From: Nematopogon swammerdamellus
Lineage: Eukaryota; Arthropoda; Insecta; Lepidoptera; Adelidae
Length of the DNA: 64,000 nt
Assembly (NCBI GenBank): GCA_946902875.1
Contig: OX336355.1
Span: 7,957,347-8,021,346 of the forward strand
Direction of reading: 5' to 3'
This document shows, in pieces, positions 4,367-43,439 of this stretch; position 1 is the stretch's first letter; each line of letters starts with the position of its first letter. The notes below the pieces were generated by a model, which saw only the letters and a list, made by a program, of their open reading frames with translations, was not told where the DNA came from and made no database searches. A program made the translations under genes and the position numbers.

Positions 4367-4483
4367 AGATCGCGGATATTTAGGAGAATTAAAAATAATT
4401 GACGTAATAGTTTAAACGTTTGCCTTTAATGTCAGAGATTCAGAATGTATAGAACGTATATAAATGTACAGGATGTATATGTA

Positions 4484-4640
4484 GATGGTAGGGTTCAACC
4501 CGCCCGTGTTGGTACCACTGCACTAAATAAACGTCGGTCGAAGTCACTATGAAAAGTAGTAACTACGTGTTTTCCATCCAATTCAGTATAGCCGGATCGA
4601 TTAGGGGGAATCGGTGACAAGGCACGTACCTAATTCACCT
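4484..4640 (+). mobile_element. SINE body fragment
   Basis: The GGTAGGGTTCAACCCGCCCG...GGTACCACTGCACT...CAGTATAGCCGG stretch is the body module of the SINE seen in full at 3936-4366, on the opposite strand. The head and A tail are absent. It lies in the middle of P copy 1, a segment with no counterpart in copy 2. Confidence 0.65.
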
Positions 4641-10142: not shown

Positions 10143-10566
10143 CCAGCGTCGAGTCGTGCGACTAGCGGGTACCCCGACGTGTCCCGAGATCTAGGACCAC
10201 TGCAACTTCGTAGGGATATCGGCGCCGTGTCTATCGCTTATTCCACGGGGAGTACTCGGAGTAGCTTGTTCAACGCGATCTCGCCATCCCCTTTCCACCT
10301 CCGCACAACGCGCACTGGGCGGGCGGGAACTGCATCCCCACCAGAGCTGCGCTTCGTACACACGAAATGAATGAAAGCGGTCGTCTCGGCCGGCGGAGCA
10401 CGCCGCGCCGTGCGATGGACTAGCTTGGACACCATGTGCAGAGTCGTGCGGCATGGACATTTCGTACAAGTCGGCGCCGACTTGCACGAGTGCACGAAAT
10501 CGGTGAATGGGTGTTGTAATGTAATGCGCTGCATTCGTTCGTCCTTGTCGCGCGCGGAGCACTCGC
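10143..10566. other. GC-rich decayed sequence between P copy 2 and the Transib-type element
   Basis: GC-rich, with reading frames on both strands and no family signature. It joins 8770-8881 on the left of P copy 2 and 14466 onward on the right of the Transib-type element. It is the older DNA into which both elements jumped. Confidence 0.35.
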
Positions 10567-10571
10567 CGCCG

Positions 10572-14460: not shown

Positions 14461-14465
14461 CGCCG

Positions 14466-14872
14466 CGCGCGTGCCGCGTGTCGGCTCGACTGTCGGCACG
14501 GCTTTCATGTCTCTTTGTTCATACCGCCAAGCCGCGCCGCCGCCCGCTACCGAAGTGTGCGCTGCTTGCTTATATGAATATTTTGCCAGGCAATTTTTAA
14601 TTTTACATTTTGAACATAAGGTTAAAATTTGAACCTTACAATCTCTACTGTGCTGTGCTGTGCATTGTGAGTGCTGCATGCTTCACTCGTCCTTGGCGCG
14701 TGTCGGCAAAGTCCGCCTTCTGCATCGCAGTAAAGTCTATAATATTTATTTACCTAGGTACTTATTCATTTAAAATGTCTGGCAAAGATTATTTAATCTT
14801 AGACATTGAGGGATACATACATACTTTAGTTGAAGATCTTATAAAATAATAAAGTGAAATATACATAAATGT
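14466..14872. other. No gene seen
   Basis: GC-rich next to the Transib-type insertion, AT-rich afterwards. Short frames exist but none has a recognisable motif. Confidence 0.3.
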
Positions 14873-22447: not shown

Positions 22448-23175
22448 CTAACAAACATTAAAATAACTATCAAAAGGGGCATTTTCAAATGTTCCTAGAA
22501 CACTTGCTGCATTACCCCGCTGGATGGCAAGGCTTACCCTTTGAATGAAGTAGGCCCTAGATTGCGGGACGCCAGTTGCGTCCACCAGCAGAGGCCCAAG
22601 CCTCTTCAAGAAGCTTTTGGCTTCACTGCTCCACGGACCGAGCGTTTCAACCGCAAACGCAACAAATTCGAAATCTTGAATAATATTTGAATATTTGTTG
22701 CGTTTGAGGCTCTCCGCTCCGGCCGCGGCCGCGCCAGCCGCTCTTGAAGAGGCCCGAACGTGACTTGGAGCCAATGTGTCGACACAAGTGGCGTCCCACA
22801 TCAATGACCTACCCTTAGCCCATGGCACCAGGGTGATACCATCGGGCCTCTTGCCATCCAGCCGGGAATAACCGCAAGGTTCTAGGATGCACGGTATGTT
22901 TGCTGTCAGAAGCGTGGACTTTATAATAAAATTTAAATTTTGATGCCTGGAGTTTCTACCTGCACTTTTGATACATGATAGTCCGTGGTGGCCATATATG
23001 TCGACTGGTGACCCACACACACAAATATGACTTTCACAAATTTTGAGGCCTAAACGAAGTGCAACCGAAATTTTGGTGGTTTTCTGATCTAATAAAGTCC
23101 CTAGGTGACTCGATGGGTAAGCTTCAAGCCACGCTCCAGATTCTTTTTCTGAAACCGCCAAAATACGTGCACGAT
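22448..23175 (-). CDS. C-terminal part of a second RT-associated retroelement polyprotein
   Basis: The minus-strand frame runs 242 codons to the TAG at 22450-22448. It contains a Cys/His cluster ([18 protein letters not shown], followed by KSAGRNSRH) and a restriction-endonuclease-like core with [13 protein letters not shown] and LMWDAT. Downstream are conserved FAVETLGPW and [16 protein letters not shown] blocks. This arrangement follows the reverse transcriptase in a class of invertebrate retroelements. The frame is broken at 23175 by the 15.4-kb palindromic element. Its upstream 58 codons lie at 38536-38710, and the two parts are in the same phase if the insertion and one CACGAT are discounted. 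The reverse transcriptase core is not present. The codons right of 23176 belong to the inserted element and should not be counted. Confidence 0.75.
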
Positions 23176-23626
23176 AGTAGTATACATATAGGGCTCCGAG
23201 CACACACTCGTGATTTTTCTAAGTCCGAGAATCAGGGGGCGTGGCCTAATTTGGGGTGTACGTAGGGCTTCGAAGTCAGGGTTCAGCTCCAGGGTGTCAG
23301 GTCAGGGTGCTGCGCCCCATCAATTTGGAGGGTGTACGTAGGCCTTCGGATTCAGGGTTCAGACTTTCGGATTCAGGATTCAGGCCTTAGGATTCAGGAT
23401 TCAGGGTTCCAGATTCAGGGTTCAGGTCCAGGGTGCTGCGCCCCATCCATTTGAGGCGTACGTAGGCCTTCGGAGTCATGGTTCAGCTCCAGGGTGCTGC
23501 ACCCCACCAGCATGGTTCCACATGCACCGAGGCTTCGCCCCTGCCCCCTACCCCACCCCGCCCCTACCACCATCCGCCGCCTCTGCCCGCGCTTCCCCGC
23601 CCCCTGCCTCACCGCCCGTTCTCCGC

Positions 23627-24087
23627 GGCTGACTCAGTATCTTTGGAATTTTACCTGTAGAGACGTGACGCCATTTGTCGTGACGTGACATCGGTGGCAG
23701 GTTTTAACCTGTAGCAACCTGCAGGAATGACTTACCCCCCTACCCATTAATATAAAGATAACGTAACAATGTTCTGTGAAATGTATTCATACTCAGCATG
23801 ACTGAGGCATCGTCAGTCAGGTAGGTTGGAGCCTAATGGTGTAGGAATGCAGACATGGCTGACTCAATATCTTTGGAATTTTACCTGTAGAGACGTGACG
23901 CCATTTGTCGTGACGTGACATCGGGTGGCAGGTTTTATCCTGTAGCAACCTGCAGGAACGACTTACCCCCCTACCCATTAATATAAAGATAACGTAACAA
24001 TGTTCTGTGAAATGTATTCATACTCAGCATGACTAAGGCATCGTTAGTCAGGTAGGTTGGAGCCTAATGGTGTAGGAATGCAGACAT
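23627..24087 (+). repeat. Two tandem copies of the BIR gene promoter and start
   Basis: Units 23627-23856 and 23857-24087 (230 and 231 bp) each hold the first codons of the BIR frame, a TAG directly after the leucine codon of MADSISLEFYL, a TATAAAG box and the leader up to the next ATG. The third start is the intact gene at 24086. A further partial unit lies at 25462-25552. The mirror copy is 37618-38078. The TATAAAG at 23982-23988 with CAGCA about 40 bp on resembles an arthropod core promoter for the BIR gene. Confidence 0.8.
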
Positions 24088-24454
24088 GGCTGACTCAATA
24101 TCTTTAGAATTTTACCTGCGCTATTCGTCCGAGTCGGCAGGTCTTCAAACATTCAACGATTGGCCACGCGCCCTCCGGCAGAAGCCTGAAGAAATTGTTA
24201 AGGCTGGGTTTTTCTACACTGGTTTTGGTGACAAAGTGGTGTGCTTTTACTGCGGAGGAACACTCAACCAGTGGCGACCGGAAGACACACCGTGGGAGGA
24301 GCACACGAGGCTAGACCGCTGCGCTTTCGTCTACATAATGAAGGGAGCTGACTTCGCCACAGTCAAAGCAAAAGGATTGGACGAGATCGACATTCCGAGC
24401 TATTCGCCATACTTGTATGCGCCATCAGACGATGGAGCCTTTAACTTGAAATGA
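24086..24454 (+). CDS. Single-BIR inhibitor-of-apoptosis-like protein, left arm
   Basis: 122 codons from the ATG at 24086 to TGA, followed by AATAAA at 24464. After a short leader the whole protein is one BIR fold: FNDWPRALRQKPEEIVKAGF, then YTGFGDKVVCFYCGG, then a Trp-containing segment and PWEEHTRLDRCAF. The zinc ligands are C-x2-C-x16-H followed by C after only five residues, one fewer than the usual six. There is no RING or second BIR, so it could bind caspases or IAP antagonists but not act as a ubiquitin ligase. BIR proteins are often carried by large insect DNA viruses and some virus-derived elements. It lies inside a Polinton-like arm with its own TATA box, and probably acts in the cytoplasm against host cell death. 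That role is inferred from the family. Confidence 0.8.
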   Translation: MADSISLEFYLRYSSESAGLQTFNDWPRALRQKPEEIVKAGFFYTGFGDKVVCFYCGGTLNQWRPEDTPWEEHTRLDRCAFVYIMKGADFATVKAKGLDEIDIPSYSPYLYAPSDDGAFNLK

Positions 24455-24663
24455 TTAATTTTCAATAAATATTTTTACATTTAACAGTGAATACATTTAT
24501 TTCAACCCACCCACACCCATAAATGAAACAAAAGTTAGCAGAAATGTTTATTTATTTTCACAAATCTTAATGCTAAAGTGTACATGATATATGTTTTAGA
24601 AAAGCCACTTAAACCCATTATTTACATAAATGGGGCAACCTAAGTTTCGTCAGCAAATATTTA

Positions 24664-24750
24664 TTTCTTGGTCAGGTCTATGATGGTTGTTTTAAAGATG
24701 ATGATGATGGCGTGGTAGATAGGTTAGAAATCAGCTTGCTGTCGCGCTGG
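24664..24750 (-). pseudogene. Relic of the 5' region and start of the 101-codon gene (left arm)
   Basis: On the minus strand this reads AGCTGATTTCTAA, CATCATCATC and then ATAGACCTGACCAAGAA. It matches the 5' leader and first five codons of the gene at 26649, with ATG changed to ATA and no frame after it. It shows that the cargo gene was once also present downstream of the BIR gene in the other orientation. Mirror copy: 36955-37041. Confidence 0.55.
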
Positions 24751-24878
24751 TTAATGGTGATATGTATGATGGCCCATTACCTCTGAGAAAAAATTGTATT
24801 GGATGTTGTCAGAATATTTTAATTTTTCATGACATATTTTATTATTTAATTTACGTACAAAGTGGAAATCTTATACTC

Positions 24879-25200
24879 TTAATATATTTGTATAACATTT
24901 TGCTGCGCATCTAACATTTGCGTAACGATATTGGCTATAGCGGAAATTATCCTTCGCTCATATTGGTTTAGCTCTGGGGTCTGCTGCACAATGCCTAACG
25001 TTGGCGATTGATGCTGCTGAGTGATCCAATCTGAAGATTGCAATGTGCACACGTTTGATGTTGGATCTTGCTTGTGCGATGTCAGCGGTGATGGCGGCTG
25101 CTGTTGATGTGTAGGCGAATAGTATGCAGATGAGTATCGTGGTGGAGATGTCGCTGGTAGAGGTGGCGATGGTGAATAATTCATCAGGGTATACGTAGGT
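24879..25200 (-). CDS. Tyr/Ser/Pro-rich frame with YSPT motifs, left arm
   Basis: The annotated ATG gives 101 codons. The same frame is open slightly further upstream to a TGA, and proline-rich coding of the same style continues beyond that TGA, so the frame may be a longer gene with a nonsense mutation. The N-terminal half repeats YSPT, YGSPT, YSPSPP and PPRYSS, recalling the low-complexity C-terminal tail of RNA polymerase II, then becomes Gln/Thr-rich. The last 30 residues (ERRIISAIANIVTQMLDAQQ) look like one amphipathic helix. I do not recognise a family. The pattern suggests an intrinsically disordered protein with a short helical anchor. The overlapping 128-codon frame at 24958-25344 is probably a shadow. 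Confidence 0.4.
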
Positions 25201-25718
25201 GAGCCGTAGGTGGGTGAGTATCACGTTGGATATATCGTTGGTGGAGATGTAGGTGGTGAATTGAGCAGCGGTGAGTCTTGCGCAAGCGAACCCACCCAAC
25301 TTATGAGTGGTGGTGCGGAAATGTATTAGGACAGTGTATTTCAAACTGCGGATAGGGAAGCCAGTGCTAGGTCAGGGTGCTGCGCCCCACCAGCGTGCTT
25401 CCACTGGCACCGAGGCTTCGCCCCTTCCCCCTACCCCGCCCCGCCCCTGCCACCCCCCTCCGCCAGTCAGGTAGGTTGGAGCCTAATGGTGTAGGAATGC
25501 AGACATGGCTGACTCAATATCTTTGGAATTTTACCTGTAGAGACGTGACGTAATGAAGTACCACTCCAACCTATCGTCCTGTGAGTTACACCGAGTCGAG
25601 ATCGAGGAGGTGAAAGCTCATGCCACTCGGTGTGCGAGTTGGACTCGCACTTGGTCGGGAAACTGGCTCGGTTGACTATATCAACTACAACCTACAGTTA
25701 TACGTTTATCCTACAGTT

Positions 25719-26030
25719 GGTGAAAGCTGCAAGTTGAAATCAAACTTATTACAATGGCTCAAGGTACATTATTTATGTTTGATTCCTGCCTACGTGCCGG
25801 ATTACCTAGCGCGTTAATACTTGCTTACAGTGTGACTCATTTAGGGATGAACAATTAGAAATTGTGGTGTGAAGGGTGGTTGGTGAAAGCTGCAAGTTGA
25901 AATCAAACTTATTACAATGGCTCAAGGTACATTATTTATGTTTGATTCCTGCCTACGTGCCGGAGTACCTAGCGTGTTAATACTTGCTTACAGTGTGACT
26001 CATTTAGCGATGAACAATTAGAAATTGTGA
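25719..26030 (+). repeat. Tandem pair of about 150-bp units, left arm
   Basis: Two direct copies of a unit starting GGTGAAAGCTGCAAGTTGAA and ending near GAACAATTAGAAATTGTG, at about 25719-25862 and 25881-26028. They differ by a few bases. No coding function is visible. Mirror copy: 35675-35986. Confidence 0.65.
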
Positions 26031-26034
26031 ACTG

Positions 26035-26475
26035 GGGTTGACAAAAGAGCTCATTAGTGGTAGATACCAAGGGATCGCTCACATGCAACGTAGATTGAGA
26101 CTTGTTGAAACATACCAATTGTTGTGGAGATATTTTTAAATGTAAAATTTTCTTAGTGCAACTATTGTGAAAGATAACTGATGTCTGGGGATGAACAAAA
26201 GAGCTCATTACTGGAAGGTATCAGCGGGTCGCTCACAGGTGACGCAGCGCAGGTTGAGACTTGCAGAAACATGAAAATGTTTGGTGAAATTATTTAAAAG
26301 TAATATCGCGCTGTGATAAAGTGTAGGTAAGTCGACCCTTCCCACAACAGCCATTATTAAAGATAATAGACGTCTTTGGGGGTTGAACAAAAGAGCTCTG
26401 TACTGGGAAAAACCAACGGGTCCATCTCGTTCGACGCAGATTGAGACTTGTAGAAACATGAAAATGTTTGACAAA
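26035..26475 (+). repeat. Three diverged tandem units upstream of the 101-codon gene
   Basis: Units begin with ACAAAAGAGCTC at 26040, 26194 and 26387. Each contains a GATTGAGACTTG-like motif and then GAAACAT, and ends in AT-rich DNA. Spacing is about 155-195 bp. Their position just before the promoter region of the gene at 26649 suggests decayed gene copies or reiterated upstream elements. Mirror copy: 35230-35670. Confidence 0.5.
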
Positions 26476-26648
26476 TTTTTAAAGTAAAATATTTTTATTT
26501 ATCTATATAGCTCATGTTTATAAGACTGAGCGCACAATTTTAGTAAAACAGTTCGATCGCAGCAGCACGCCGACTTGTATCTCTACACACCACAGTGAGC
26601 TGATTTCTAAATATCGACCACACCCGCATCATCTTCACACCAACCATC

Positions 26649-26954
26649 ATGGACCTAACCAAGATCAACGAAGCGGGCAAGCGAGCCTTCCTGGAGACGC
26701 GGAAACTCGCCATCTTGGAGATTGGAAAACTCTACCGAGTGACCGACTTGCGCAAAGTTGCAACCAAATACGGAGATCGCATTGTAGCTGACATCGATGA
26801 GACTTTCTGCGTCTTCCTACCCAAGCGGATGATCGACGCCTTCAACAAGGATGGGAAGATGTTCGAAGATATGGTTGAAGCTAGCAGAGAAAACGTGCTT
26901 GGGCTGAAATACCTTGGTGGGACGTACAATGCTATCGAGTTCGATAGTATGTAA
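26649..26954 (+). CDS. 101-codon protein of unknown function, left arm
   Basis: ATG at 26649 in a good context (CATCATGG) and TAA after 101 codons. AATAAA-type signals lie at 27011 and 27066. The predicted protein has a charged helix (RAFLETRKLAILEIGKLYRV), then a segment rich in alternating hydrophobics (TDLRKVATKYGDRIVADID) leading to FCVFLPKRM, a second helix, and LGLKYLGGTYNAIEF at the end. No membrane segment or signal is visible. The central part could form a small beta barrel of OB type, which would suit nucleic-acid binding, but that is only an inference. I do not recognise the family. Perfect preservation in both arms and a relic start at 24664 suggest it is a stable part of the element's cargo. 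Confidence 0.65.
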   Translation: MDLTKINEAGKRAFLETRKLAILEIGKLYRVTDLRKVATKYGDRIVADIDETFCVFLPKRMIDAFNKDGKMFEDMVEASRENVLGLKYLGGTYNAIEFDSM

Positions 26955-27419
26955 GAAGAGGGCGTGGAAATGTATGTGGAATACCAACGTTTTAGCTGTA
27001 CGATTTTAGAAATAAAAAATTTTGTCTAAGATATGTACTGTGTATTAAGGAAAATAACCTTATGTAATAAAGCTTATAATTGAACAATATTTTTTAATTT
27101 TCATACCCAACCGCACTAGATAATACCAAGGTATATAGTTATTAGTTCCTTAGTAAGAAACTCTAACAATTTTGTGAATCATCAAAATTTATTTCACTAA
27201 GGTTGGAAACAAAAGATTAAAAATTGTGGGAATTCTTTTCATAGCTTCAGCCCACAACTTTACCTGCGCACATGTAGGCACTTCTGGCATGAGGGGGCTG
27301 CTTCTAGATAATTCCGGATTAGGAAAGGTGGGTTGACGCTTGAGTTTAAATAATATTATTTCGAGGCATCATTTAAAATTGAAACGTCGTGCAAGCAAGT
27401 TCTCAAAGAAATCAACATC

Positions 27420-27546
27420 ATGGGAGTGACCGCCAAATGGCGAATTAACAGCGCCGCGCAACTGCAGGGGGCCATCTTGCGGCACAACAGTGGAAAATTC
27501 AATGATGGCGAGCTGTATCGCTGTATTCAGCTAACCTATTCTTCAG
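27420..27546 (+). CDS. Exon-like segment with splice donor, left arm
   Basis: ATG at 27420 opens GVTAKWRINSAAQLQGAILR and continues NSGKFNDGELYRCIQL to TCAG followed by the donor GTGAGATA at 27547. The frame is also open upstream of the ATG to a TAA about 60 bases back. Shortened, frame-broken copies of the end of this exon plus the donor occur at about 28930-29000 and 31219-31289. The peptide family is unknown. It may be an exon of host origin or part of a spliced element gene. Confidence 0.35.
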
Positions 27547-27658
27547 GTGAGATATATTTGTCATTATAATATATATTTTATACACACCACTTTTTTACAG
27601 AATCACAATGTTTACTCGATGTGAACCTATTATACCTTATTACTATTTGATCATTATC

Positions 27659-27900
27659 AGCCTCGGTAGCTCAGTGGTGTGTCAACAGCTCTAAAGCAAC
27701 CCTGGGTGCGGATAGTGCTGAGATGGGTGATTGATCACTCATCCGTTGGAGGCTGACCGTGGTTCGGATCCTACGTTAAACTGTAGTATAAACGTATAAC
27801 TGTAGGTTGTAGTTGATATAGTCAACCGAGCCAGTTTCCCGACCAAGTGCGAGTCCAACTCGCACACCGAGGGTTCCGTATCACCATATCATGGTCAGCA
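27659..27900 (+). mobile_element. tRNA/5S-headed SINE joined to GAGGGTTCCGTA repeat, left arm
   Basis: CCTCGGTAGCTCAGTGGTGT supplies a tRNA-like A box, GATGGGTGATTG is the decayed 5S-like piece, and GGTTCGGATCC the B box. The tail leads directly into CCAAGTGCGAGTCCAACTCG and GAGGGTTCCGTATCACC, the beginning of another repeat family. Further copies lie at 29103-29340 and 31392-31630, and an inverse copy at 33805-34046. An inverse fragment is at 25620-25718. Confidence 0.6.
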
Positions 27901-28814
27901 CCACTCACGCCATTAGTTATAATGCTTCATACACTACTATTTTGGCACCTATATTTATTATTAAGACCTGTACTCAGGGCATTGAGGTGTACCAATGGGT
28001 TAATTAAAAAAAAGCTGAAATCGGCACTCTTGTTAGCACAAAAGGGCCATTGACGATTTAAAAAAAAAATAATGTTTTGTCGTTTTATGTATCTCTTTTC
28101 TAATTTTATTTATTGCTGCGTTGTATTTAGTTATATTATTTTATTGTGTTGTTACTTTTTGTATTATTCTGTTTTTGCTATCCTTTGTGTTATTATAAGG
28201 TATTATTTTAAAGAGTTGTTATTTGTAGTGTTAGTCATTTGTTTGTTTATTGATAGAAAAAGGTACTGTGCTTATGTTAGGTTAGCACCATTGTTACATT
28301 ATCATATCTACCTAAGGGTAGACCGGGCAGGATCTACCTGAGATGGGGCCTGGCGGCGAAGCTTTACAAGCGCAATTGTTCAGCCGGAAGCCGGAGCCGG
28401 TGGGGTAGCACGTTAAATTTATTAACATTTTATTAGGTAATAATTACTCCAATTAACTACTCTATTAAACTGATATGAAACTTAGGCGGTAATATTTCTA
28501 AAAATTATTTTGATTGCTCCAATTAAAACAAGAATTACATTTATTGAAGTTTTATTAGGTACCTATTAATTATCCCCATTAACCTGATAAGACCCTTAGC
28601 CTACAGAAAACGTTCAACGAGCCAACATTTCCGAGAGTTGGTGGATGACTCAAGATTCGGGAAGCATGATACCGGATTCGGGAATCATGAATTGGAGCCC
28701 AGGAGGTGGCGAGGGTAGCGGAGCGGGGGTAGCGGGGGTGGGGTGGCACGCTAAATTAATAATTTTTTTTTATTAGGTATTAATTACCCCAATTAACTAC
28801 TCTATTAAACTGAT

Positions 28815-31103
28815 ATGAAGCTTAGGCGGTAACATTTTTAAAATTATTTTAATTACTCCAATTAAAACGAGAATTACATTTATTGACGTTTTATTAGGTA
28901 TTAATTACCCCAATTAACTGACAAATAGTGCAGGGGTCCATCGTGCGGCACAAGAGCTGTATCGCTGTATTCAGCTAACCTATTCTTCAGGTGAGATATA
29001 TTTGTCATTATAATATATATTTTATACACACCACTTTTTTTACAGAATCACAATGTTTACTCGATGTGAACCTATTATACCTTATCACTATTTGATCATT
29101 GTCAGCCTCGGTAGCTCAGTGGTGTGCCAACAGCTGTAAAGCAACCGTGGGTGCGGATAGTGCTGAGATGGGTGATTGATCACTCATCCGTTGGAGGCTG
29201 ACCGTGGTTCTGATCCTACATTAAACTGTAGGATAAACGTATAACTGTAGGTTGTAGTTGATATAGTCAACCGAGCCAGTTTCCCGACCAAGTGCGAGTC
29301 CAACTCGCACACCGAGGGTTCCGTATCACCATATCATGGTCAGCACCACTCACGCCATTAGTTATAATGCTTCATACACTACTATTTTGGCACCTATATT
29401 TATTATTAAGACCTATACTCAGGGCAATGAGGTGTACCAATGTGTTAAAAAAAAAAAAACTAAAATCGGCACTCTTGTTAGCACAAAAGGGTCATTGATG
29501 ATTTAAAAAAATATTAATGTTTTGTCGTTTTATGTATCTCTTTTCAAATTTGATTTATTGCTGCGTTGTATTTAGTTATATTATTTTTTTGTGTTGTTAC
29601 TTTATGTATTATTCTGTTTTTGCTATCCTTTGTGTTATTATAAGGTATTATTTTAAAGTTGTTATTTATAGTGTTAGTCATTTGTTTGTTTATTGATAGA
29701 AAAAGGTACTGTGCTTATGTTAGGTTAGCACCATTGTTACATTATCATATCTACCTAAGGGTAGACCGGGCAGGATCTACCTGAGATGGGGCCTGGCGGC
29801 GAAGCTTTACAAGCGCAATTGTTCAGCCGGAAGCCGGAGCCAGTGGGGTAGCACGTTAAATTTATTAACATTTTATTAGGTAATAATTACTCCAATTAAC
29901 TACTCTATTAAACTGATATGAAACTTTGGCGGTAATATTTCTAAAAATTATTTTGATTGCGCCAATTAAAACAAGAATTACATTTATTGAAGTTTTATTA
30001 GGTACCTATTAATTATCCCCATTAACCTGATAAGACCCTTAGCCTACAGAAAACGTTCAACGAGCCAACATTTCCGCAGGGTTCAGGTCCAGGGTGCTAG
30101 GTCAGGGTGCTGCGCCCCACCAGCGTGGTTCCAACGAGCAACGGCAACGAGGCTTCGCCCCTTCCCCCTACCCCGCCCCGCCCCTGCCACTTCCCTCCGC
30201 CCCAGCCTTCACCCCTCCGCAGTATCCCTGCCACCCGATCGGAGTCAGGGTTCAGCTCCAGGGTGCCAGGTCAAGTGCTGCGCCCCATCAATTTGTCAGT
30301 TAATTGGGGTAATTAATACCTAATAAAACGTCAATAAATGTAATTCTCGTTTTAATTGGAGTAATTAAAATAATTATAAAAATGTTACCGCCTAAGCGCA
30401 GGGGGCGCAGCACCCTGACCTAGCACCCTGGACCTGAACCCTGCGGAAATGTTGGCTCGTTGAACGTTTTCTGTAGGCTAAGGGTCTTATCAGGTTAATG
30501 GGGATAATTAATAGGTACCTAATAAAACTTCAATAAATGTAATTCTCGTTTTAATTGGAGTAATTAAAATAATTTTAAAAATGTTACCGCCTAAGCTTCA
30601 TATCAGTTTAATAGAGTAGTTAATTGGGGTAATTAATACCTAATAAAAAAAAATTATTAATTTAGCGTGCCACCCCACCCCCGCTACCCCCGCTCCGCTA
30701 CCCTCGCCACCTCCTGGGCTCCAATTCATGATTCCCGAATCCGGTATCATGCTTCCCGAATCTTGAGTCATCCACCAACTCTCGGAAATGTTGGCTCGTT
30801 GAACGTTTTCTGTAGGCTAAGGGTCTTATCAGGTTAATGGGGATAATTAATAGGTACCTAATAAAACTTCAATAAATGTAATTCTTGTTTTAATTGGAGC
30901 AATCAAAATAATTTTTAGAAATATTACCGCCTAAGTTTCATATCAGTTTAATAGAGTAGTTAATTGGAGTAATTATTACCTAATAAAATGTTAATAAATT
31001 TAACGTGCTACCCCACCGGCTCCGGCTTCCGGCTGAACAATTGCGCTTGTAAAGCTTCGCCGCCAGGCCCCATCTCAGGTAGATCCTGCCCGGTCTACCC
31101 TTA
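28815..31103 (+). repeat. Core direct repeat, unit 1 (2,289 bp)
   Basis: This unit is repeated head-to-tail at 31104-33392. Its first two thirds are an older, slightly diverged copy of about 27480-28620. Its last 570 bp are the inverse of 28313-28886, and around 30061-30460 it contains a smaller palindrome of CAGGGTTCAGGTCCAGGGTG units. The content is otherwise AT-rich, with repeated TTAATTGGAGTAATTA blocks. Confidence 0.75.
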
Positions 31104-33392
31104 ATGAAGCTTAGGCGGTAACATTTTTAAAATTATTTTAATTACTCCAATTAAAACGAGAATTACATTTATTGACGTTTTATTAGGTATTAATTACCCC
31201 AATTAACTGACAAATAGTGCAGGGGTCCATCGTGCGGCACAAGAGCTGTATCGCTGTATTCAGCTAACCTATTCTTCAGGTGAGATATATTTGTCATTAT
31301 AATATATATTTTATACACACCACTTTTTTTACAGAATCACAATGTTTACTCGATGTGAACCTATTATACCTTATCACTATTTGATCATTGTCAGCCTCGG
31401 TAGCTCAGTGGTGTGCCAACAGCTGTAAAGCAACCGTGGGTGCGGATAGTGCTGAGATGGGTGATTGATCACTCATCCGTTGGAGGCTGACCGTGGTTCT
31501 GATCCTACATTAAACTGTAGGATAAACGTATAACTGTAGGTTGTAGTTGATATAGTCAACCGAGCCAGTTTCCCGACCAAGTGCGAGTCCAACTCGCACA
31601 CCGAGGGTTCCGTATCACCATATCATGGTCAGCACCACTCACGCCATTAGTTATAATGCTTCATACACTACTATTTTGGCACCTATATTTATTATTAAGA
31701 CCTATACTCAGGGCAATGAGGTGTACCAATGTGTTAAAAAAAAAAAAACTAAAATCGGCACTCTTGTTAGCACAAAAGGGTCATTGATGATTTAAAAAAA
31801 TATTAATGTTTTGTCGTTTTATGTATCTCTTTTCAAATTTGATTTATTGCTGCGTTGTATTTAGTTATATTATTTTTTTGTGTTGTTACTTTATGTATTA
31901 TTCTGTTTTTGCTATCCTTTGTGTTATTATAAGGTATTATTTTAAAGTTGTTATTTATAGTGTTAGTCATTTGTTTGTTTATTGATAGAAAAAGGTACTG
32001 TGCTTATGTTAGGTTAGCACCATTGTTACATTATCATATCTACCTAAGGGTAGACCGGGCAGGATCTACCTGAGATGGGGCCTGGCGGCGAAGCTTTACA
32101 AGCGCAATTGTTCAGCCGGAAGCCGGAGCCAGTGGGGTAGCACGTTAAATTTATTAACATTTTATTAGGTAATAATTACTCCAATTAACTACTCTATTAA
32201 ACTGATATGAAACTTTGGCGGTAATATTTCTAAAAATTATTTTGATTGCGCCAATTAAAACAAGAATTACATTTATTGAAGTTTTATTAGGTACCTATTA
32301 ATTATCCCCATTAACCTGATAAGACCCTTAGCCTACAGAAAACGTTCAACGAGCCAACATTTCCGCAGGGTTCAGGTCCAGGGTGCTAGGTCAGGGTGCT
32401 GCGCCCCACCAGCGTGGTTCCAACGAGCAACGGCAACGAGGCTTCGCCCCTTCCCCCTACCCCGCCCCGCCCCTGCCACTTCCCTCCGCCCCAGCCTTCA
32501 CCCCTCCGCAGTATCCCTGCCACCCGATCGGAGTCAGGGTTCAGCTCCAGGGTGCCAGGTCAAGTGCTGCGCCCCATCAATTTGTCAGTTAATTGGGGTA
32601 ATTAATACCTAATAAAACGTCAATAAATGTAATTCTCGTTTTAATTGGAGTAATTAAAATAATTATAAAAATGTTACCGCCTAAGCGCAGGGGGCGCAGC
32701 ACCCTGACCTAGCACCCTGGACCTGAACCCTGCGGAAATGTTGGCTCGTTGAACGTTTTCTGTAGGCTAAGGGTCTTATCAGGTTAATGGGGATAATTAA
32801 TAGGTACCTAATAAAACTTCAATAAATGTAATTCTCGTTTTAATTGGAGTAATTAAAATAATTTTAAAAATGTTACCGCCTAAGCTTCATATCAGTTTAA
32901 TAGAGTAGTTAATTGGGGTAATTAATACCTAATAAAAAAAAATTATTAATTTAGCGTGCCACCCCACCCCCGCTACCCCCGCTCCGCTACCCTCGCCACC
33001 TCCTGGGCTCCAATTCATGATTCCCGAATCCGGTATCATGCTTCCCGAATCTTGAGTCATCCACCAACTCTCGGAAATGTTGGCTCGTTGAACGTTTTCT
33101 GTAGGCTAAGGGTCTTATCAGGTTAATGGGGATAATTAATAGGTACCTAATAAAACTTCAATAAATGTAATTCTTGTTTTAATTGGAGCAATCAAAATAA
33201 TTTTTAGAAATATTACCGCCTAAGTTTCATATCAGTTTAATAGAGTAGTTAATTGGAGTAATTATTACCTAATAAAATGTTAATAAATTTAACGTGCTAC
33301 CCCACCGGCTCCGGCTTCCGGCTGAACAATTGCGCTTGTAAAGCTTCGCCGCCAGGCCCCATCTCAGGTAGATCCTGCCCGGTCTACCCTTA
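31104..33392 (+). repeat. Core direct repeat, unit 2 (2,289 bp)
   Basis: Direct copy of 28815-31103. I saw no difference in the stretches compared. Its last 574 bp overlap the inner end of the right inverted arm. The seam at 31103/31104 is a clean join of CTACCCTTA to ATGAAGCTT. Confidence 0.75.
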
Positions 33393-34158
33393 GGTAGATA
33401 TGATAATGTAACAATGGTGCTAACCTAACATAAGCACAGTACCTTTTTCTATCAATAAACAAACAAATGACTAACACTACAAATAACAACTCTTTAAAAT
33501 AATACCTTATAATAACACAAAGGATAGCAAAAACAGAATAATACAAAAAGTAACAACACAATAAAATAATATAACTAAATACAACGCAGCAATAAATAAA
33601 ATTAGAAAAGAGATACATAAAACGACAAAACATTATTTTTTTTTTAAATCGTCAATGGCCCTTTTGTGCTAACAAGAGTGCCGATTTCAGCTTTTTTTTA
33701 ATTAACCCATTGGTACACCTCAATGCCCTGAGTACAGGTCTTAATAATAAATATAGGTGCCAAAATAGTAGTGTATGAAGCATTATAACTAATGGCGTGA
33801 GTGGTGCTGACCATGATATGGTGATACGGAACCCTCGGTGTGCGAGTTGGACTCGCACTTGGTCGGGAAACTGGCTCGGTTGACTATATCAACTACAACC
33901 TACAGTTATACGTTTATACTACAGTTTAACGTAGGATCCGAACCACGGTCAGCCTCCAACGGATGAGTGATCAATCACCCATCTCAGCACTATCCGCACC
34001 CAGGGTTGCTTTAGAGCTGTTGACACACCACTGAGCTACCGAGGCTGATAATGATCAAATAGTAATAAGGTATAATAGGTTCACATCGAGTAAACATTGT
34101 GATTCTGTAAAAAAGTGGTGTGTATAAAATATATATTATAATGACAAATATATCTCAC

Positions 34159-34285
34159 CTGAAGAATAGGTTAGCTGAATACAGCGATACAGCTCGCCAT
34201 CATTGAATTTTCCACTGTTGTGCCGCAAGATGGCCCCCTGCAGTTGCGCGGCGCTGTTAATTCGCCATTTGGCGGTCACTCCCAT
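34159..34285 (-). CDS. Exon-like segment with splice donor, right arm
   Basis: Inverse copy of 27420-27546 with the same donor. The same uncertainty applies. Confidence 0.35.
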
Positions 34286-34750
34286 GATGTTGATTTCTTT
34301 GAGAACTTGCTTGCACGACGTTTCAATTTTAAATGATGCCTCGAAATAATATTATTTAAACTCAAGCGTCAACCCACCTTTCCTAATCCGGAATTATCTA
34401 GAAGCAGCCCCCTCATGCCAGAAGTGCCTACATGTGCGCAGGTAAAGTTGTGGGCTGAAGCTATGAAAAGAATTCCCACAATTTTTAATCTTTTGTTTCC
34501 AACCTTAGTGAAATAAATTTTGATGATTCACAAAATTGTTAGAGTTTCTTACTAAGGAACTAATAACTATATACCTTGGTATTATCTAGTGCGGTTGGGT
34601 ATGAAAATTAAAAAATATTGTTCAATTATAAGCTTTATTACATAAGGTTATTTTCCTTAATACACAGTACATATCTTAGACAAAATTTTTTATTTCTAAA
34701 ATCGTACAGCTAAAACGTTGGTATTCCACATACATTTCCACGCCCTCTTC

Positions 34751-35056
34751 TTACATACTATCGAACTCGATAGCATTGTACGTCCCACCAAGGTATTTCA
34801 GCCCAAGCACGTTTTCTCTGCTAGCTTCAACCATATCTTCGAACATCTTCCCATCCTTGTTGAAGGCGTCGATCATCCGCTTGGGTAGGAAGACGCAGAA
34901 AGTCTCATCGATGTCAGCTACAATGCGATCTCCGTATTTGGTTGCAACTTTGCGCAAGTCGGTCACTCGGTAGAGTTTTCCAATCTCCAAGATGGCGAGT
35001 TTCCGCGTCTCCAGGAAGGCTCGCTTGCCCGCTTCGTTGATCTTGGTTAGGTCCAT
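34751..35056 (-). CDS. 101-codon protein of unknown function, right arm
   Basis: Inverse copy of 26649-26954, with the same start, stop and polyadenylation signals, reading toward the element centre. It encodes the same predicted protein, ending GGTYNAIEFDSM. Confidence 0.65.
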   Translation of the reverse strand: MDLTKINEAGKRAFLETRKLAILEIGKLYRVTDLRKVATKYGDRIVADIDETFCVFLPKRMIDAFNKDGKMFEDMVEASRENVLGLKYLGGTYNAIEFDSM

Positions 35057-36504
35057 GATGGTTGGTGTGAAGATGATGCGGGTGTGGTCGATATTTAGAA
35101 ATCAGCTCACTGTGGTGTGTAGAGATACAAGTCGGCGTGCTGCTGCGATCGAACTGTTTTACTAAAATTGTGCGCTCAGTCTTATAAACATGAGCTATAT
35201 AGATAAATAAAAATATTTTACTTTAAAAATTTGTCAAACATTTTCATGTTTCTACAAGTCTCAATCTGCGTCGAACGAGATGGACCCGTTGGTTTTTCCC
35301 AGTACAGAGCTCTTTTGTTCAACCCCCAAAGACGTCTATTATCTTTAATAATGGCTGTTGTGGGAAGGGTCGACTTACCTACACTTTATCACAGCGCGAT
35401 ATTACTTTTAAATAATTTCACCAAACATTTTCATGTTTCTGCAAGTCTCAACCTGCGCTGCGTCACCTGTGAGCGACCCGCTGATACCTTCCAGTAATGA
35501 GCTCTTTTGTTCATCCCCAGACATCAGTTATCTTTCACAATAGTTGCACTAAGAAAATTTTACATTTAAAAATATCTCCACAACAATTGGTATGTTTCAA
35601 CAAGTCTCAATCTACGTTGCATGTGAGCGATCCCTTGGTATCTACCACTAATGAGCTCTTTTGTCAACCCCAGTTCACAATTTCTAATTGTTCATCGCTA
35701 AATGAGTCACACTGTAAGCAAGTATTAACACGCTAGGTACTCCGGCACGTAGGCAGGAATCAAACATAAATAATGTACCTTGAGCCATTGTAATAAGTTT
35801 GATTTCAACTTGCAGCTTTCACCAACCACCCTTCACACCACAATTTCTAATTGTTCATCCCTAAATGAGTCACACTGTAAGCAAGTATTAACGCGCTAGG
35901 TAATCCGGCACGTAGGCAGGAATCAAACATAAATAATGTACCTTGAGCCATTGTAATAAGTTTGATTTCAACTTGCAGCTTTCACCAACTGTAGGATAAA
36001 CGTATAACTGTAGGTTGTAGTTGATATAGTCAACCGAGCCAGTTTCCCGACCAAGTGCGAGTCCAACTCGCACACCGAGTGGCATGAGCTTTCACCTCCT
36101 CGATCTCGACTCGGTGTAACTCACAGGACGATAGGTTGGAGTGGTACTTCATTACGTCACGTCTCTACAGGTAAAATTCCAAAGATATTGAGTCAGCCAT
36201 GTCTGCATTCCTACACCATTAGGCTCCAACCTACCTGACTGGCGGAGGGGGGTGGCAGGGGCGGGGCGGGGTAGGGGGAAGGGGCGAAGCCTCGGTGCCA
36301 GTGGAAGCACGCTGGTGGGGCGCAGCACCCTGACCTAGCACTGGCTTCCCTATCCGCAGTTTGAAATACACTGTCCTAATACATTTCCGCACCACCACTC
36401 ATAAGTTGGGTGGGTTCGCTTGCGCAAGACTCACCGCTGCTCAATTCACCACCTACATCTCCACCAACGATATATCCAACGTGATACTCACCCACCTACG
36501 GCTC

Positions 36505-36826
36505 ACCTACGTATACCCTGATGAATTATTCACCATCGCCACCTCTACCAGCGACATCTCCACCACGATACTCATCTGCATACTATTCGCCTACACATCA
36601 ACAGCAGCCGCCATCACCGCTGACATCGCACAAGCAAGATCCAACATCAAACGTGTGCACATTGCAATCTTCAGATTGGATCACTCAGCAGCATCAATCG
36701 CCAACGTTAGGCATTGTGCAGCAGACCCCAGAGCTAAACCAATATGAGCGAAGGATAATTTCCGCTATAGCCAATATCGTTACGCAAATGTTAGATGCGC
36801 AGCAAAATGTTATACAAATATATTAA
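36505..36826 (+). CDS. Tyr/Ser/Pro-rich frame with YSPT motifs, right arm
   Basis: Inverse copy of the left-arm frame (annotated ATG at 36521), with the same upstream in-frame TGA and the same C-terminal helix. It lies between the BIR gene and the 101-codon gene, on the strand opposite to both. Confidence 0.4.
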
Positions 36827-37250
36827 GAGTATAAGATTTCCACTTTGTACGTAAATTAAATAATAAAATATGTCATGAAAAATTAAAATATTCTGACAAC
36901 ATCCAATACAATTTTTTCTCAGAGGTAATGGGCCATCATACATATCACCATTAACCAGCGCGACAGCAAGCTGATTTCTAACCTATCTACCACGCCATCA
37001 TCATCATCTTTAAAACAACCATCATAGACCTGACCAAGAAATAAATATTTGCTGACGAAACTTAGGTTGCCCCATTTATGTAAATAATGGGTTTAAGTGG
37101 CTTTTCTAAAACATATATCATGTACACTTTAGCATTAAGATTTGTGAAAATAAATAAACATTTCTGCTAACTTTTGTTTCATTTATGGGTGTGGGTGGGT
37201 TGAAATAAATGTATTCACTGTTAAATGTAAAAATATTTATTGAAAATTAA

Positions 37251-37619
37251 TCATTTCAAGTTAAAGGCTCCATCGTCTGATGGCGCATACAAGTATGGCG
37301 AATAGCTCGGAATGTCGATCTCGTCCAATCCTTTTGCTTTGACTGTGGCGAAGTCAGCTCCCTTCATTATGTAGACGAAAGCGCAGCGGTCTAGCCTCGT
37401 GTGCTCCTCCCACGGTGTGTCTTCCGGTCGCCACTGGTTGAGTGTTCCTCCGCAGTAAAAGCACACCACTTTGTCACCAAAACCAGTGTAGAAAAACCCA
37501 GCCTTAACAATTTCTTCAGGCTTCTGCCGGAGGGCGCGTGGCCAATCGTTGAATGTTTGAAGACCTGCCGACTCGGACGAATAGCGCAGGTAAAATTCTA
37601 AAGATATTGAGTCAGCCAT
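37251..37619 (-). CDS. Single-BIR inhibitor-of-apoptosis-like protein, right arm
   Basis: Inverse copy of 24086-24454 with an identical predicted protein of 122 residues, the same short H-x5-C spacing at the last zinc ligand, and the same upstream decoy starts. The two copies are divergent from the element centre and both read inward from the element ends. Identity between the two suggests recent duplication or conversion. Whether both are expressed cannot be told from the sequence. Confidence 0.8.
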   Translation of the reverse strand: MADSISLEFYLRYSSESAGLQTFNDWPRALRQKPEEIVKAGFFYTGFGDKVVCFYCGGTLNQWRPEDTPWEEHTRLDRCAFVYIMKGADFATVKAKGLDEIDIPSYSPYLYAPSDDGAFNLK

Positions 37620-38535
37620 GTCTGCATTCCTACACCATTAGGCTCCAACCTACCTGACTAACGATGCCTTAGTCATGCTGAGTATGAATACATTTCACAG
37701 AACATTGTTACGTTATCTTTATATTAATGGGTAGGGGGGTAAGTCGTTCCTGCAGGTTGCTACAGGATAAAACCTGCCACCCGATGTCACGTCACGACAA
37801 ATGGCGTCACGTCTCTACAGGTAAAATTCCAAAGATATTGAGTCAGCCATGTCTGCATTCCTACACCATTAGGCTCCAACCTACCTGACTGACGATGCCT
37901 CAGTCATGCTGAGTATGAATACATTTCACAGAACATTGTTACGTTATCTTTATATTAATGGGTAGGGGGGTAAGTCATTCCTGCAGGTTGCTACAGGTTA
38001 AAACCTGCCACCGATGTCACGTCACGACAAATGGCGTCACGTCTCTACAGGTAAAATTCCAAAGATACTGAGTCAGCCGCGGAGAACGGGCGGTGAGGCA
38101 GGGGGCGGGGAAGCGCGGGCAGAGGCGGCGGATGGTGGTAGGGGCGGGGTGGGGTAGGGGGCAGGGGCGAAGCCTCGGTGCATGTGGAACCATGCTGGTG
38201 GGGTGCAGCACCCTGGAGCTGAACCATGACTCCGAAGGCCTACGTACGCCTCAAATGGATGGGGCGCAGCACCCTGGACCTGAACCCTGAATCTGGAACC
38301 CTGAATCCTGAATCCTAAGGCCTGAATCCTGAATCCGAAAGTCTGAACCCTGAATCCGAAGGCCTACGTACACCCTCCAAATTGATGGGGCGCAGCACCC
38401 TGACCTGACACCCTGGAGCTGAACCCTGACTTCGAAGCCCTACGTACACCCCAAATTAGGCCACGCCCCCTGATTCTCGGACTTAGAAAAATCACGAGTG
38501 TGTGCTCGGAGCCCTATATGTATACTACTCACGAT

Positions 38536-40235: not shown

Positions 40236-40630
40236 TCTGTATGGGGAGAGGACGTGTAAGGAAGGACATCCGGCCGCGACCGCCCCGTCCTCCCCTCGTG
40301 ATGGCTCTTCGGTTGATTTTCTTGTGAAATAAAACTCTTTATTTTATGGAACAGAGGTCTTCTTATTAAAAACATTAAATAGAAGACGTAAAAAAAATTA
40401 CCTAAAAAAATTATGATTAAGTACAAACTAACATACTTTATTATTAGACACCCGGCCGAAAACGTAAGTAACTAAGTCGTTTACTTACGCCATCTTGAAA
40501 TATCATTTCTGCTCTTAGTTTGCCTTTTTTGCAGTGAGTTAGTGGCAACCCCGGTGAGCGGTCAAGTCCTGTGTTGCCGCCAGAGAGAGAGTGAGAGAGA
40601 AGCTGCGACGGCATTGCATTTGCATTCTTA
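40236..40630. other. No gene seen
   Basis: Short GC-richer stretch to 40310, then AT-rich, ending with a GAGA run at 40583-40599 just before the mariner-type element. I see no family or gene. Confidence 0.3.
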
Positions 40631-40632
40631 TA

Positions 40633-42632
40633 CAGGGTGTCCCAAAACTCGACGTCCAAACGAAAGGAGGTCATAGAGGAGGTCATTTCCAATCAGAATC
40701 ACCCTATTTGTAGTTATCCATTTCTCAGTCGTTTAGAAGTTATAGCTCTTTTTCTGAGTTTTTCTAATTTCAACCCAAATTTTCGAATAAAAAATCATAA
40801 AAAAAATTACATGTAACTTGGGTTCATTTAATTTTTTGGGGTTTTATTGCAATTAGTGTAGCTTTGTAAAAAAAAATGTTTTATAACATTTTCTTTCTTA
40901 TTCCAATAGTAAAGCCTATTTCAATTAGAATTTTTCAGTAATTCATCAATGAAGCCTTGACTTTGATTGAAGTTTACTTTAAAAAAATGTACTAGAGGAA
41001 AGTGAACCTGCTTTGCAAAAACATGTACAGTTCATACGGATTCCAGAAAGGTACAATTCATTAGATTCATTACCATTAAACTTAATCTTTAAGACGAAGA
41101 TATGAATGAAACAACTAATCCGGTCTAACAAATTTAAAAGCGTTAGGTACTTTCTTAGAAGAGAACAATGGAGGGCCTCTCCGTTGAACCCGTGAAAACA
41201 ATGGGACCGGTCGCCAACATGTTTCACCTACCCCCTCCCCTCCCCTCCCACGCCTTTAAGCCGTTCATCACCTATCTGCGCCTGACCCACTCTTTCACTT
41301 TCAGTGACTCGCTAGCCGCTTGTAACATCGCCGTTCCGCTATTCTGTTTTCTTTTTCTTTCTTTACATACGATTTGGCTATTCTTTACGAACTTTGATCC
41401 CTATCCTGTGTGTTTAACCTGCGCTTGTGATTTGGACTGTGATTGTGCTTGTGATTTGGACTTGTGATTGAACTGAAAACTGCGTAGAGATGGCAGCCTA
41501 CACGCCCCGTGAATATGCAGAAATGCATTTTATTTACGGTTTATGTGACGGCAACGCTCGTAATGTTGCGAGGGAATACTGCAATCGGTACCCGGAACGC
41601 GAACGCTATCCCGATCATAGAGTGTTCATAAATGTACACAACACACACGTTCAAGGTGAAATTCCTGGTACCCATCGAGTAGGTGGAGCACGTCGAGCAC
41701 TTCTTCTTCGCCGTCGATCCCAACGAATTAAAAAGTATCGGGAAGTGGCATACAACGCACCGACTTGAGTGAGGCGCGCTATTTGTGAGCATTCGGCACA
41801 CACTCTTTCGCAAGCACTCAGTCCGCCGCACTGCGCCGCTCAGGCAGGTCACGTTTTTGTATCAATCCGTCCATAAAAGAGAGATACAATATCATGTATT
41901 CGCATACACAAAATATGACAGAATAGCGGAACGGCGATGTTACAAGAAGCTAGCGAGTCATTTAAACTGAAAGAGTGGGTCAGGCGCAGATAGGTGATGA
42001 ACGGCTTAAAGGCGTGGGAGGGGAGGGGAGGGGGTAGGTGAAACATGTTGGCGACCGGTCCCATTGTTTTCACGGGTTCAACGGAGAGGCCCTCCATTGT
42101 TCTCTTCTAAGAAAGTACCTAACGCTTTTAAATTTGTTAGACCGGATTAGTTGTTTCATTCATATGTTCGTCTTAAAGATTAAGTTTTATGGTAATGAAT
42201 CTAATGAATTGTACCTTTCTGGAATCCGTATGAACTGTACATGTTTTTGCAAAGCAGGTTCACTTTCCTGTAGTACATTTTTTTAAAGTAAACTTCAATC
42301 AAAGTCAAGGCTTCATTGATGAATTAATGAAAAATTCTAATTTAAATAGGCTTTCCTATTGGAATAAGAAAGAAAATGTTATAAAACAAATGTTTTCACA
42401 AAGCTACACTAATTGCAATAAAACCCCAAAAAATTTAATGAACCTAAGTTACATGTAATTTTTTTTACGATTTTTTATTCGAAAATTGGCGTTGTAATTA
42501 GAAAAACCCAGAAAAAGAGCTATAACTTCTAAACGACTGAGAAATGGATAACTACAAATAGGGTGATTCTGATTGGAAATGACCTCCTTTATGACCTCCT
42601 TTCGTTTGGACGTCGAGTTTTGGGACACCCTG
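40633..42632 (+). mobile_element. Mariner-type element rebuilt as a 720-bp-armed foldback
   Basis: The ends CAGGGTGTCCCAAAACTCGA and inverse are flanked by TA on both sides (40631-40632 and 42633-42634), as for Tc1/mariner elements. The arms 40633 to about 41353 and about 41917 to 42632 are inverse copies with scattered differences. The central 560 bp hold the N-terminal part of a transposase frame. The catalytic region is absent, so the right arm seems to be an inverted copy of the 5' end. Confidence 0.8.
41490..41768 (+). pseudogene. N-terminal helix-turn-helix of mariner-type transposase
   Basis: ATG at 41490 gives 92 codons. The first 55 (for example YAEMHFIYGLCDGNARNVAR and then YCNRYPERERYPDHRVF) fit the helix-turn-helix region catalogued as DUF4817, found at the N-terminus of many arthropod mariner-like transposases. 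After the GEIPGT motif the frame loses family resemblance, and it stops before any DDE/D residue. Its place between matching arms with TA duplications supports the call. It could still bind DNA, but cannot catalyse transposition. Confidence 0.65.
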
Positions 42633-43439
42633 TATAATATATATCGACTTGTATTGTATAATATCGGTTGGTAGATGGCTACACGTTTCAGCGCGGTCGC
42701 TCTGTCGTCGGCTTTCACAACTAAATTGTTCTGTAAATAAATATTGAAAGCGCAGACGTGCCGGTGACAAGTTGACTCGGATCGAATGGCGTCAGAAATA
42801 GACCAATCGATACTTTACAAATGAATCTCAAAGAATTCAATAGATGGGGTACCAACGCGTGACCGGGGCGGCGTGAGTAGGTAGTGTACGTGGCCGGTTG
42901 GTGGCGCCTTGTTAGCTTCCATTCTTCAACTCAAGGTTCCAGGTTCGAATCCGGCCGACGACGGTCTTGTGCTGTAATTTACCCAAGTTCTTGCAGCACA
43001 ACACCGACTACTCTTCTCACCCAGATTGTCGAGATACAGCTTGTGGTATGTATGTACATAATTTTATAATACCTAGCAGAAAAAGCTTTATAATTTGGCC
43101 GATGCAAAACAACTCCTAAAACTTTTTCGTTTTTTTTTTCGGCACGAATGGTGGAAAATGTTGCCAGTAAGCAGAAGCATTTACAGCTTTTACGGTTTTC
43201 TCAGAACGTTCCCAAGCATTTGGTCCCGACCTGTACAGACAGCAAACAAGTGAATCTAAAACCCATTCGGCCCAACGGAACGAGCTCTGCGCTCCGCCCT
43301 GACTGCACCAGAAGCACTGCTCTAAATACGCTGAAACAGCAGGACAATGCAGCTGGGAAATCTTCCTAGCAGTGGCGTATCAAGGGGCAAGGTGAATTTC
43401 AAAGAGAACTCGTGTCGGGCGACTTTTCGCCGTCTTAAG
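42633..43439. other. No gene seen; SINE tail fragment at 42964-43057
   Basis: CTTGTGCTGTAATTTACCC...TTGCAGCACAACACCGACTA at 42964-43057 is the 3' module of the second SINE family (compare 59395-59705). A 73-codon frame at 43148-43369 has no recognisable features and is probably chance. Confidence 0.4.

Follow-up and report, generated by a model that had tools for sequence, protein, structure and literature searches.

A giant palindrome with Polinton ends in Nematopogon swammerdamellus, probably a snapback-type satellite of full Polintons

INTRODUCTION

Polintons, also termed Mavericks, end with the motif AG...CT, and the way in which they replicate was so far inferred mostly from their gene content. 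The autonomous elements are marked by a protein-primed family B DNA polymerase and an rve-type integrase (PMC4028283, available text), their terminal inverted repeats (TIRs) extend over several hundred bp and their target-site duplications (TSDs) are 5–6 bp long (PMC12220804, available text). Here, a 15,354-bp palindrome is described, which occupies positions 23176–38529 of a 64,000-nucleotide stretch of DNA (the window) from Nematopogon swammerdamellus (Lepidoptera; Adelidae; assembly GCA_946902875.1, contig OX336355.1, positions 7,957,347 to 8,021,346 of the forward strand). It resembles the Polinton/Maverick elements, relatives of adintoviruses and polintoviruses, in the AG...CT ends, the 6-bp TSD, the terminal repeat sequence and the presence of BIR and accessory genes, but it contains none of their core genes and its arms are 5.7 kb long, whereas the TIR of a full element takes ~440 bp.

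Palindromic genomes are familiar from linear DNA viruses. Symmetric-recombinant defective genomes of adenovirus are protein-primed linear DNAs, i.e., palindromes with the same end twice, known as virion or laboratory products and not as chromosomal copies; the window element is likewise a palindrome with the same end twice but is chromosomal. A literature search aimed at these recombinants gave nothing recognised on them among the matches listed. Adeno-associated virus (AAV) uses hairpin inverted terminal repeats and Rep, not protein priming. Its snapback defective genomes are likewise self-complementary DNA molecules, which are either symmetric or carry a single-stranded loop; they replicate when Rep and helper functions are given, and template switching was proposed for them. 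Unlike the element described here, they were found in virions and not as a chromosomal family with TSDs (PMC8235507, available text). These self-complementary genomes may be regarded as the nearest parallel for which a paper can be cited (PMC8235507, available text). Long inverted repeats, chimeric arms and non-autonomous copies consisting only of TIRs are also features of foldback elements and of Galileo, the latter of which belongs to the P-element superfamily and has TIRs of ~0.3–1.2 kb (PMC3573991, available text), while the ends and the TSD in the window are of Polinton type. No report on palindromic Polintons or on polymerase-bearing palindromes was recognised in the titles and abstract openings of the matches listed, and palindromic Polintons are unmentioned in the available text of PMC6431247, PMC8504770, PMC4028283 and PMC12220804.

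RESULTS

The palindrome and its ends

The analysis was based on one assembly (699-Mb genome, 39 contigs). The window element starts with AGTAGTATACATATAGGG and its other end is the exact inverse, which gives AG...CT termini. When each position x was compared with its mirror position 61705-x, the first 5,711 bases proved to be the exact reverse complement of the last 5,711, with neither mismatch nor indel, and an alignment of the complete arms (23176–28918 against 38529–32783) gave 99.88% identity over 5,747 columns. The element is composed of the following parts:

23170..23175, no strand: left copy of the 6-bp TSD CACGAT, directly outside the left end
23176..28918, + strand: left palindrome arm, in which 5,711 bp match the mirrored right arm exactly
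23176..23856, + strand: terminal region common to the full Polintons C19 and C10 of the same genome (mirror 37849–38529)
28919..30493, + strand: asymmetric central spacer, 1,575 bp
28815..31103, + strand: first of the two identical 2,289-bp units of the central tandem duplication
31104..33392, + strand: second unit of the tandem duplication
32783..38529, − strand: right palindrome arm, as aligned with the left arm
38530..38535, no strand: right copy of the TSD CACGAT, directly outside the right end

No microhomology is present at the junction of the central tandem duplication. The first-pass annotation of the window had described a giant palindrome with 5.7-kb arms and zero net indel, a 5′-AG start, an exactly inverse end and a 6-bp flanking duplication; the perfect mirror of 5,711 positions and the CACGAT found outside both ends agree with this description. 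Other inverted structures of the window are a smaller fold-back at 40628–42637, in which 728-bp arms (96.4%) flank ~550 bp and the ends are TTATACAGGGTGTCCCAAAA, and a ~1.18-kb inverted repeat (94%, 1.6 kb apart) at 10559–14474. A 256-aa open frame (22448–23218, − strand), without a Pfam match, spans the left flank and the start of the element.

Full Polintons with the same ends

Two full Polintons with matching ends were found, C19 (14.4 kb) and C10 (16.1 kb), whose TIRs are 96–97% identical to those of the window element and, within both full elements, take 441–442 alignment columns at 96.4–96.6% identity. Their TSDs are AACTCT and ATCTAC (2/2). Apart from the BIR gene and 0.7 kb of terminal sequence, which both share with the window element, they contain Polinton genes; the region 23176–23856 is 93.7–93.9% identical to their left ends over 716 columns and 85.6% to their right ends over 717 columns.

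The family B polymerase was confirmed on the C19 frame (PF03175, 1e-32); an earlier whole-length Pfam scan had picked up no more than part of Endonuclease_7 together with a weak viral domain, and comparison of the whole polymerase with the PDB by sequence gave no match. On C10, Pfam identified the rve integrase (PF00665, 4.1e-13), the A32-type ATPase (Pox_A32, 4e-8), the double-jelly-roll capsid (DJR, 9.8e-115) and also the BIR domain, and for all of these tested frames the other of the two elements has near-identical ones. With NCBIfam the integrase had only IS-type matches, all below the cut-off, and the protease and minor capsid frames, which had no Pfam match, were named by eye. Since the ATPase region of C19 is split into two overlapping frames, full-element copies need not all be complete.

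The genome searches scored the best candidates only, so that all copy counts given here are lower bounds. A 400-aa piece of the polymerase has at least 26 genome matches at 99–100% identity, 23 of them in a 1275-aa frame (best 104 of 260 candidates scored), and the integrase at least 28 full-length matches at 98–100%, all in a 303-aa frame (best 130 of 1,196 scored). At the C28 locus, TIR positions 16–400 are 99% identical and polymerase and integrase matches lie nearby. The full Polinton C10 also encodes a protein with a phospholipase A2-like domain (PF08398, 2.1e-12; L024 3028–3828), and the genome harbours a second large Polinton group with polymerases 53–54% identical (>50 matches, many in frames of 1167–1174 aa) and integrases ~50% identical.

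A family of palindromes

When the terminal 400 bases were compared with the genome (best 40 of 348 candidates scored), many matches formed inverted pairs 12–19 kb apart on many contigs. A frame of the arm that is 116 aa long from stop to stop has 120 genome matches, of which 115 were taken into the clustering, the other five being second pieces of split matches that add no cluster. This gave 60 clusters genome-wide; 46 contain an inverted pair, and the remaining 14 are single matches, direct arrays or distant homologues. Palindrome lengths, estimated from 42 of the inverted-pair spacings, are ~11.4–15.8 kb (median 12.8 kb), mostly somewhat below the two measured full elements. With two further palindromes outside the 46, C4:3.00M and C20:11.17M, the family numbers about fifty. 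Arm-to-arm alignments were made for 10 palindromes (window, C34, C16, C9, C6, C31, C7, C22:20.77M, C3:26.0M and C4); for C20 the palindromic structure was deduced from the inverted polymerase pair and the ends, and for the others from the inverted frame pair. At G000:C2:16970054-16991048 two inverted frame pairs lie in tandem, with 9.6 kb between the inner frames. Three same-orientation matches of the frame, 5,776 bp apart, form head-to-tail arm units at G000:C12:12540000-12548000 (L084), which the palindrome model does not explain.

Target-site duplications were sought in 25 palindromes and both ends were located in 20 (all but C3:11.33M, C10:20.97M, C4:19.85M, C29 and C2:5.42M). A perfect 6-bp duplication flanks 19 of these 20, and all 19 differ from each other; the exception is C19:6.72M, and the ATATAT of C9:23.86M, which lies inside an AT repeat, is weak alone. 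The termini are of several kinds, starting with AGTAGTATAC, with AGTAGGGTATG, or with AGTAGGTGAGC/AGTAGGTAAGC (termed TIR_B).

The proposal made for the window element beforehand, namely a non-autonomous relative of Polintons with Polinton-type ends, is supported: its ends are those of gene-complete Polintons in the same genome, and its relatives are present in multiple copies with their own TSDs. Two findings had been named in advance as support, either gene-complete Polintons that share these ends or more palindromic copies, each flanked by a 6-bp duplication of its own, and both were obtained.

A shared centre and polymerase-bearing palindromes

The spacer is 97.5–99.9% identical across four palindromes with different arms: that of the window is 99.9% identical to the C22:20.77M spacer and 97.5–97.7% to those of C31 and C4 (1,365–1,366 columns), and the C4 spacer is 97.7% identical to the window's and 98.5% to that of C31. 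It contains TIR-like pieces and a 354-bp piece that has 98–99% identity with sequence on the left side of the polymerase. A head-to-head fusion at the left Polinton end is not claimed, given the rearranged orientation and the absence of the terminal 10-mer from the centre.

The spacer probe also matches both polymerase palindromes, C4 and C20. The C4 arm consists of TIR_B, a 1258-aa polymerase frame (PF03175, 3.2e-24, in both arms), a window-type end repeated internally, and the common centre; aligned over 6,814 columns, its two arms show a single mismatch and 2 gap positions. In C20, of which only the ends were fetched, inverted polymerase matches lie in a 1258-aa frame on one side and a 782-aa frame on the other. 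In C22:20.97M the left part carries TIR_B and a polymerase, with 99.86% identity to C4 (3,587 columns); the right side also ends in TIR_B but gave no polymerase match, and a single duplication, GTAAAT, flanks the whole. One common centre thus bears the polymerase on both sides (C4, C20), on one (C22:20.97M) or on neither, as in the window. This polymerase belongs to a 76–77% class with at least 6 matches (two in C4, two in C20, one in C22:20.97M and one in an element that could not be read through), and 5 of the 6 frames have 1258 aa, the sixth being the 782-aa frame of C20. Compared with the polymerase of full elements, it shows 70% amino-acid identity over 1,248 codons and a pN/pS of 0.22.

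Mosaic arms

Arm stretches 1644–2141 and 2541–3127 are 96.7–98.4% identical to a different Polinton, L031, whose polymerase is 67% and integrase 68% identical. Arms from different copies have as many as 36 differing sites in 4.3 kb. The left arm of C22:20.77M is near the window arm (3 mismatches), its right arm nearer to the C7 right arm (10 mismatches, 4 gap events). Over the same first 4.3 kb, the left and right arms of one palindrome show no difference in the window and in C31, 4 differences in C34 and 7 in C9, and C16 and C6 have 2 mismatches and one gap each; the C7 left arm was excluded, being interrupted by a LINE-like insert. Because C16 and C6 hold the identical pair of unequal arms, palindromes move as whole units. 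The LINE-like insert (L019 3956–9739, in the C7:13.5M copy) is present in one arm only, contains an 841-aa reverse-transcriptase-like frame, named by eye, and is flanked by a 16-bp repeat of arm positions 2928–2943.

These comparisons show that the palindromes were inserted as whole units, that their ends and some arm genes are Polinton-derived, that a common spacer joins copies with different arms, and that arm exchange took place, followed in some copies by a return to symmetry. Judged from such differences, the palindromes recombine and sometimes become perfectly symmetric, but not at every step.

Genes of the window arms

The following frames were assigned in the arms:

24086..24454, + strand: BIR-domain (IAP-like) frame, 122 aa (Pfam PF00653, E 2.3e-21), with a homologous frame in full Polintons
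37251..37619, − strand: mirror copy of the BIR frame
24879..25220, − strand: proline-rich remnant (named by eye), the tail of a second BIR gene (mirror 36485–36826)
26649..26954, + strand: 101-aa frame (116 aa when counted between stops), for which a small beta-barrel is predicted
34751..35056, − strand: mirror copy of the 101-aa frame

When ten full-Polinton proteins were compared with the window by tblastn (E <= 1e-3), BIR was the only match, and polymerase, integrase, packaging ATPase, protease-like and capsid (jelly-roll) proteins gave none. Because these core genes are lacking, the window element, which has the TIRs of gene-complete elements and a 6-bp TSD (CACGAT), is not an autonomous Polinton.

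The 98.4% match of arm positions 1644–2141 is to L031:5263-4765, where a 253-aa BIR frame is present. The protein of this L031 frame (4441–5199; PF00653, 4.2e-19) has a tail rich in proline, so apoptosis-inhibitor genes are present in two or more types of Polinton in this genome. The structure model of the 101-aa frame has a pLDDT of 85.1, its fold comparison gave no significant match, and its product is possibly ssDNA-binding. The L031 homologue is 83% identical, with a dN/dS of 0.30 against the window (16 synonymous and 20 non-synonymous differences), and the frame is constrained between the two; the same comparison of the BIR frame offers too few differences. As many copies within the genome are near-identical, selection on arm genes is hardly testable there. 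The protein database holds 8 matches to the 101-aa frame, all unnamed except one "hypothetical protein", and 1 match to the BIR frame; among viral contigs neither the 101-aa alignment nor the polymerase piece has relatives.

In the first-pass annotation the arms were said to carry an apoptosis-inhibitor-like gene and no core Polinton genes. The Pfam and tblastn results confirm both for the window; the second does not extend to the whole family, because C4 and C20 carry the polymerase on both sides. The element had also been called cargo-bearing. Genes are indeed present, but the BIR and 101/116-aa frames both occur in gene-bearing Polintons and so represent Polinton-family accessory content.

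DISCUSSION

The window element most probably (about 0.77) derives from Polinton/Maverick elements as a non-autonomous palindrome of the snapback type, is a satellite of full Polintons and replicates through a hairpin. That it is a mobile palindrome derived from Polintons is nearly certain. Its integration in trans by full Polintons, to which the shared termini point, is very probable, and the hairpin as the cause of the symmetry is somewhat favoured. Strand-displacement synthesis from a protein primer is the known mode of this polymerase family. In the proposed mechanism the protein-primed polymerase would start at the terminal repeat and displace one strand, which, being self-complementary, would fold into a long hairpin closed by the 1.4–1.6-kb spacer. 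The open end of this hairpin would equal a duplex terminus, which would allow a new round of priming, and synthesis past the loop would regenerate the whole palindrome. Where the arms differ by a mismatch or an insert, repair or copying in the hairpin would carry the change of one arm over to the other. The integrase of full Polintons would then recognise the common termini and insert the product with a 6-bp duplication, which would make the element their satellite; some members of the family keep a polymerase of their own. With regard to structure and sequence origin, the element corresponds to a snapback defective interfering genome, i.e., self-complementary DNA derived from a helper genome.

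Several points weigh against this explanation. Neither an extrachromosomal hairpin nor a terminal protein was seen, nor were virions or mobilisation. The arms of C22:20.77M differ by 13 mismatches and 5 gap events, those of C3:26.0M by 18 mismatches and 3 gap events (both over ~4.3 kb), and those of C31, followed over 5,750 columns, by 3 mismatches and 8 gap positions; as some palindromes keep unequal arms, arm-to-arm copying is not obligatory in every cycle. No gene-complete parent with TIR_B was found, and none of the 131 integrase matches listed (best 130 of 1,196 candidates scored) lies near the TIR_B polymerase copies. A subfamily with one TAA in each 116-aa frame (28 matches of equal score in 14 clusters) has spread nonetheless, which indicates that the protein of this frame is not needed in cis.

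Equal arms could likewise result from chromosomal gene conversion, if the palindromes were internally deleted Polintons whose TIRs grew by conversion between the ends, along the foldback/Galileo route. TIR extension by copying of internal sequence was proposed for Galileo, and inverted-repeat expansion is reported for Polintons in the same source (PMC3573991, available text), so some TIR lengthening is not new; the tracts of different lineages in the C22:20.77M arms would also suit this explanation. Yet the window arms are identical over 5.7 kb and those of C4 have 1 mismatch in 6.8 kb, though as many as 36 sites in 4.3 kb separate the arms of different copies, and the LINE-like insert at C7 persists in one arm only, so conversion after that insertion has neither removed nor copied it. 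We consider this route unlikely. It is doubtful, too, that the palindromes form a partly independent, long-lived replicon lineage with its own polymerase, which needs Polintons only for integration or capsids. The 76–77% polymerase class, with its mostly 1258-aa frames, and its divergence from the full-element polymerase at a pN/pS of 0.22 speak for such a lineage, but its carriers are few (3 readable polymerase palindromes against 46 arm-frame clusters), and the polymerase copies compared are near-identical (99.86% between C22 and C4), which makes selection within palindromes hardly testable.

Two other origins of the mirror half were rejected. Long perfect palindromes are hard to assemble and the analysis relies on the assembly, so a haplotype or read-through error might be suspected; it is very improbable in view of the 46 inverted-pair clusters on many contigs, the matching outer TSDs in 19 of 20 palindromes, the arms that differ within several copies and the insert in one arm only. 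Two Polinton-derived insertions standing side by side in opposite orientation would also give two similar inverted halves, but there is one TSD, on the outside, the terminal 10-mer is absent from the centre and the same spacer occurs at independent sites, which leaves this origin with next to no credibility.

Beyond the snapback satellite itself, packaging and interference with full Polintons we infer only. It may tentatively be imagined, at less than even odds, that the palindromes are linear snapback replicons which, as satellites of Polintons, form a lineage that renews itself. Some would have a protein-primed polymerase of their own, any newly captured arm or gene would be copied across by hairpin replication, and the palindromes would use the integrase and perhaps the capsids of full Polintons and interfere with them, e.g., by dsRNA from the mirrored BIR and end sequences.

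Palindromes in which the polymerase is symmetric, one-armed or missing preserve traces of the way in which Polinton-type DNA may be copied, and the record of this family fits self-annealing single strands. With it Polintons, whose genes include those of virus capsids, would gain a satellite comparable to the defective genomes of DNA viruses. The family also shows that a self-synthesising class of transposons can give rise to foldback-like elements, and that these can attain copy numbers in the dozens.

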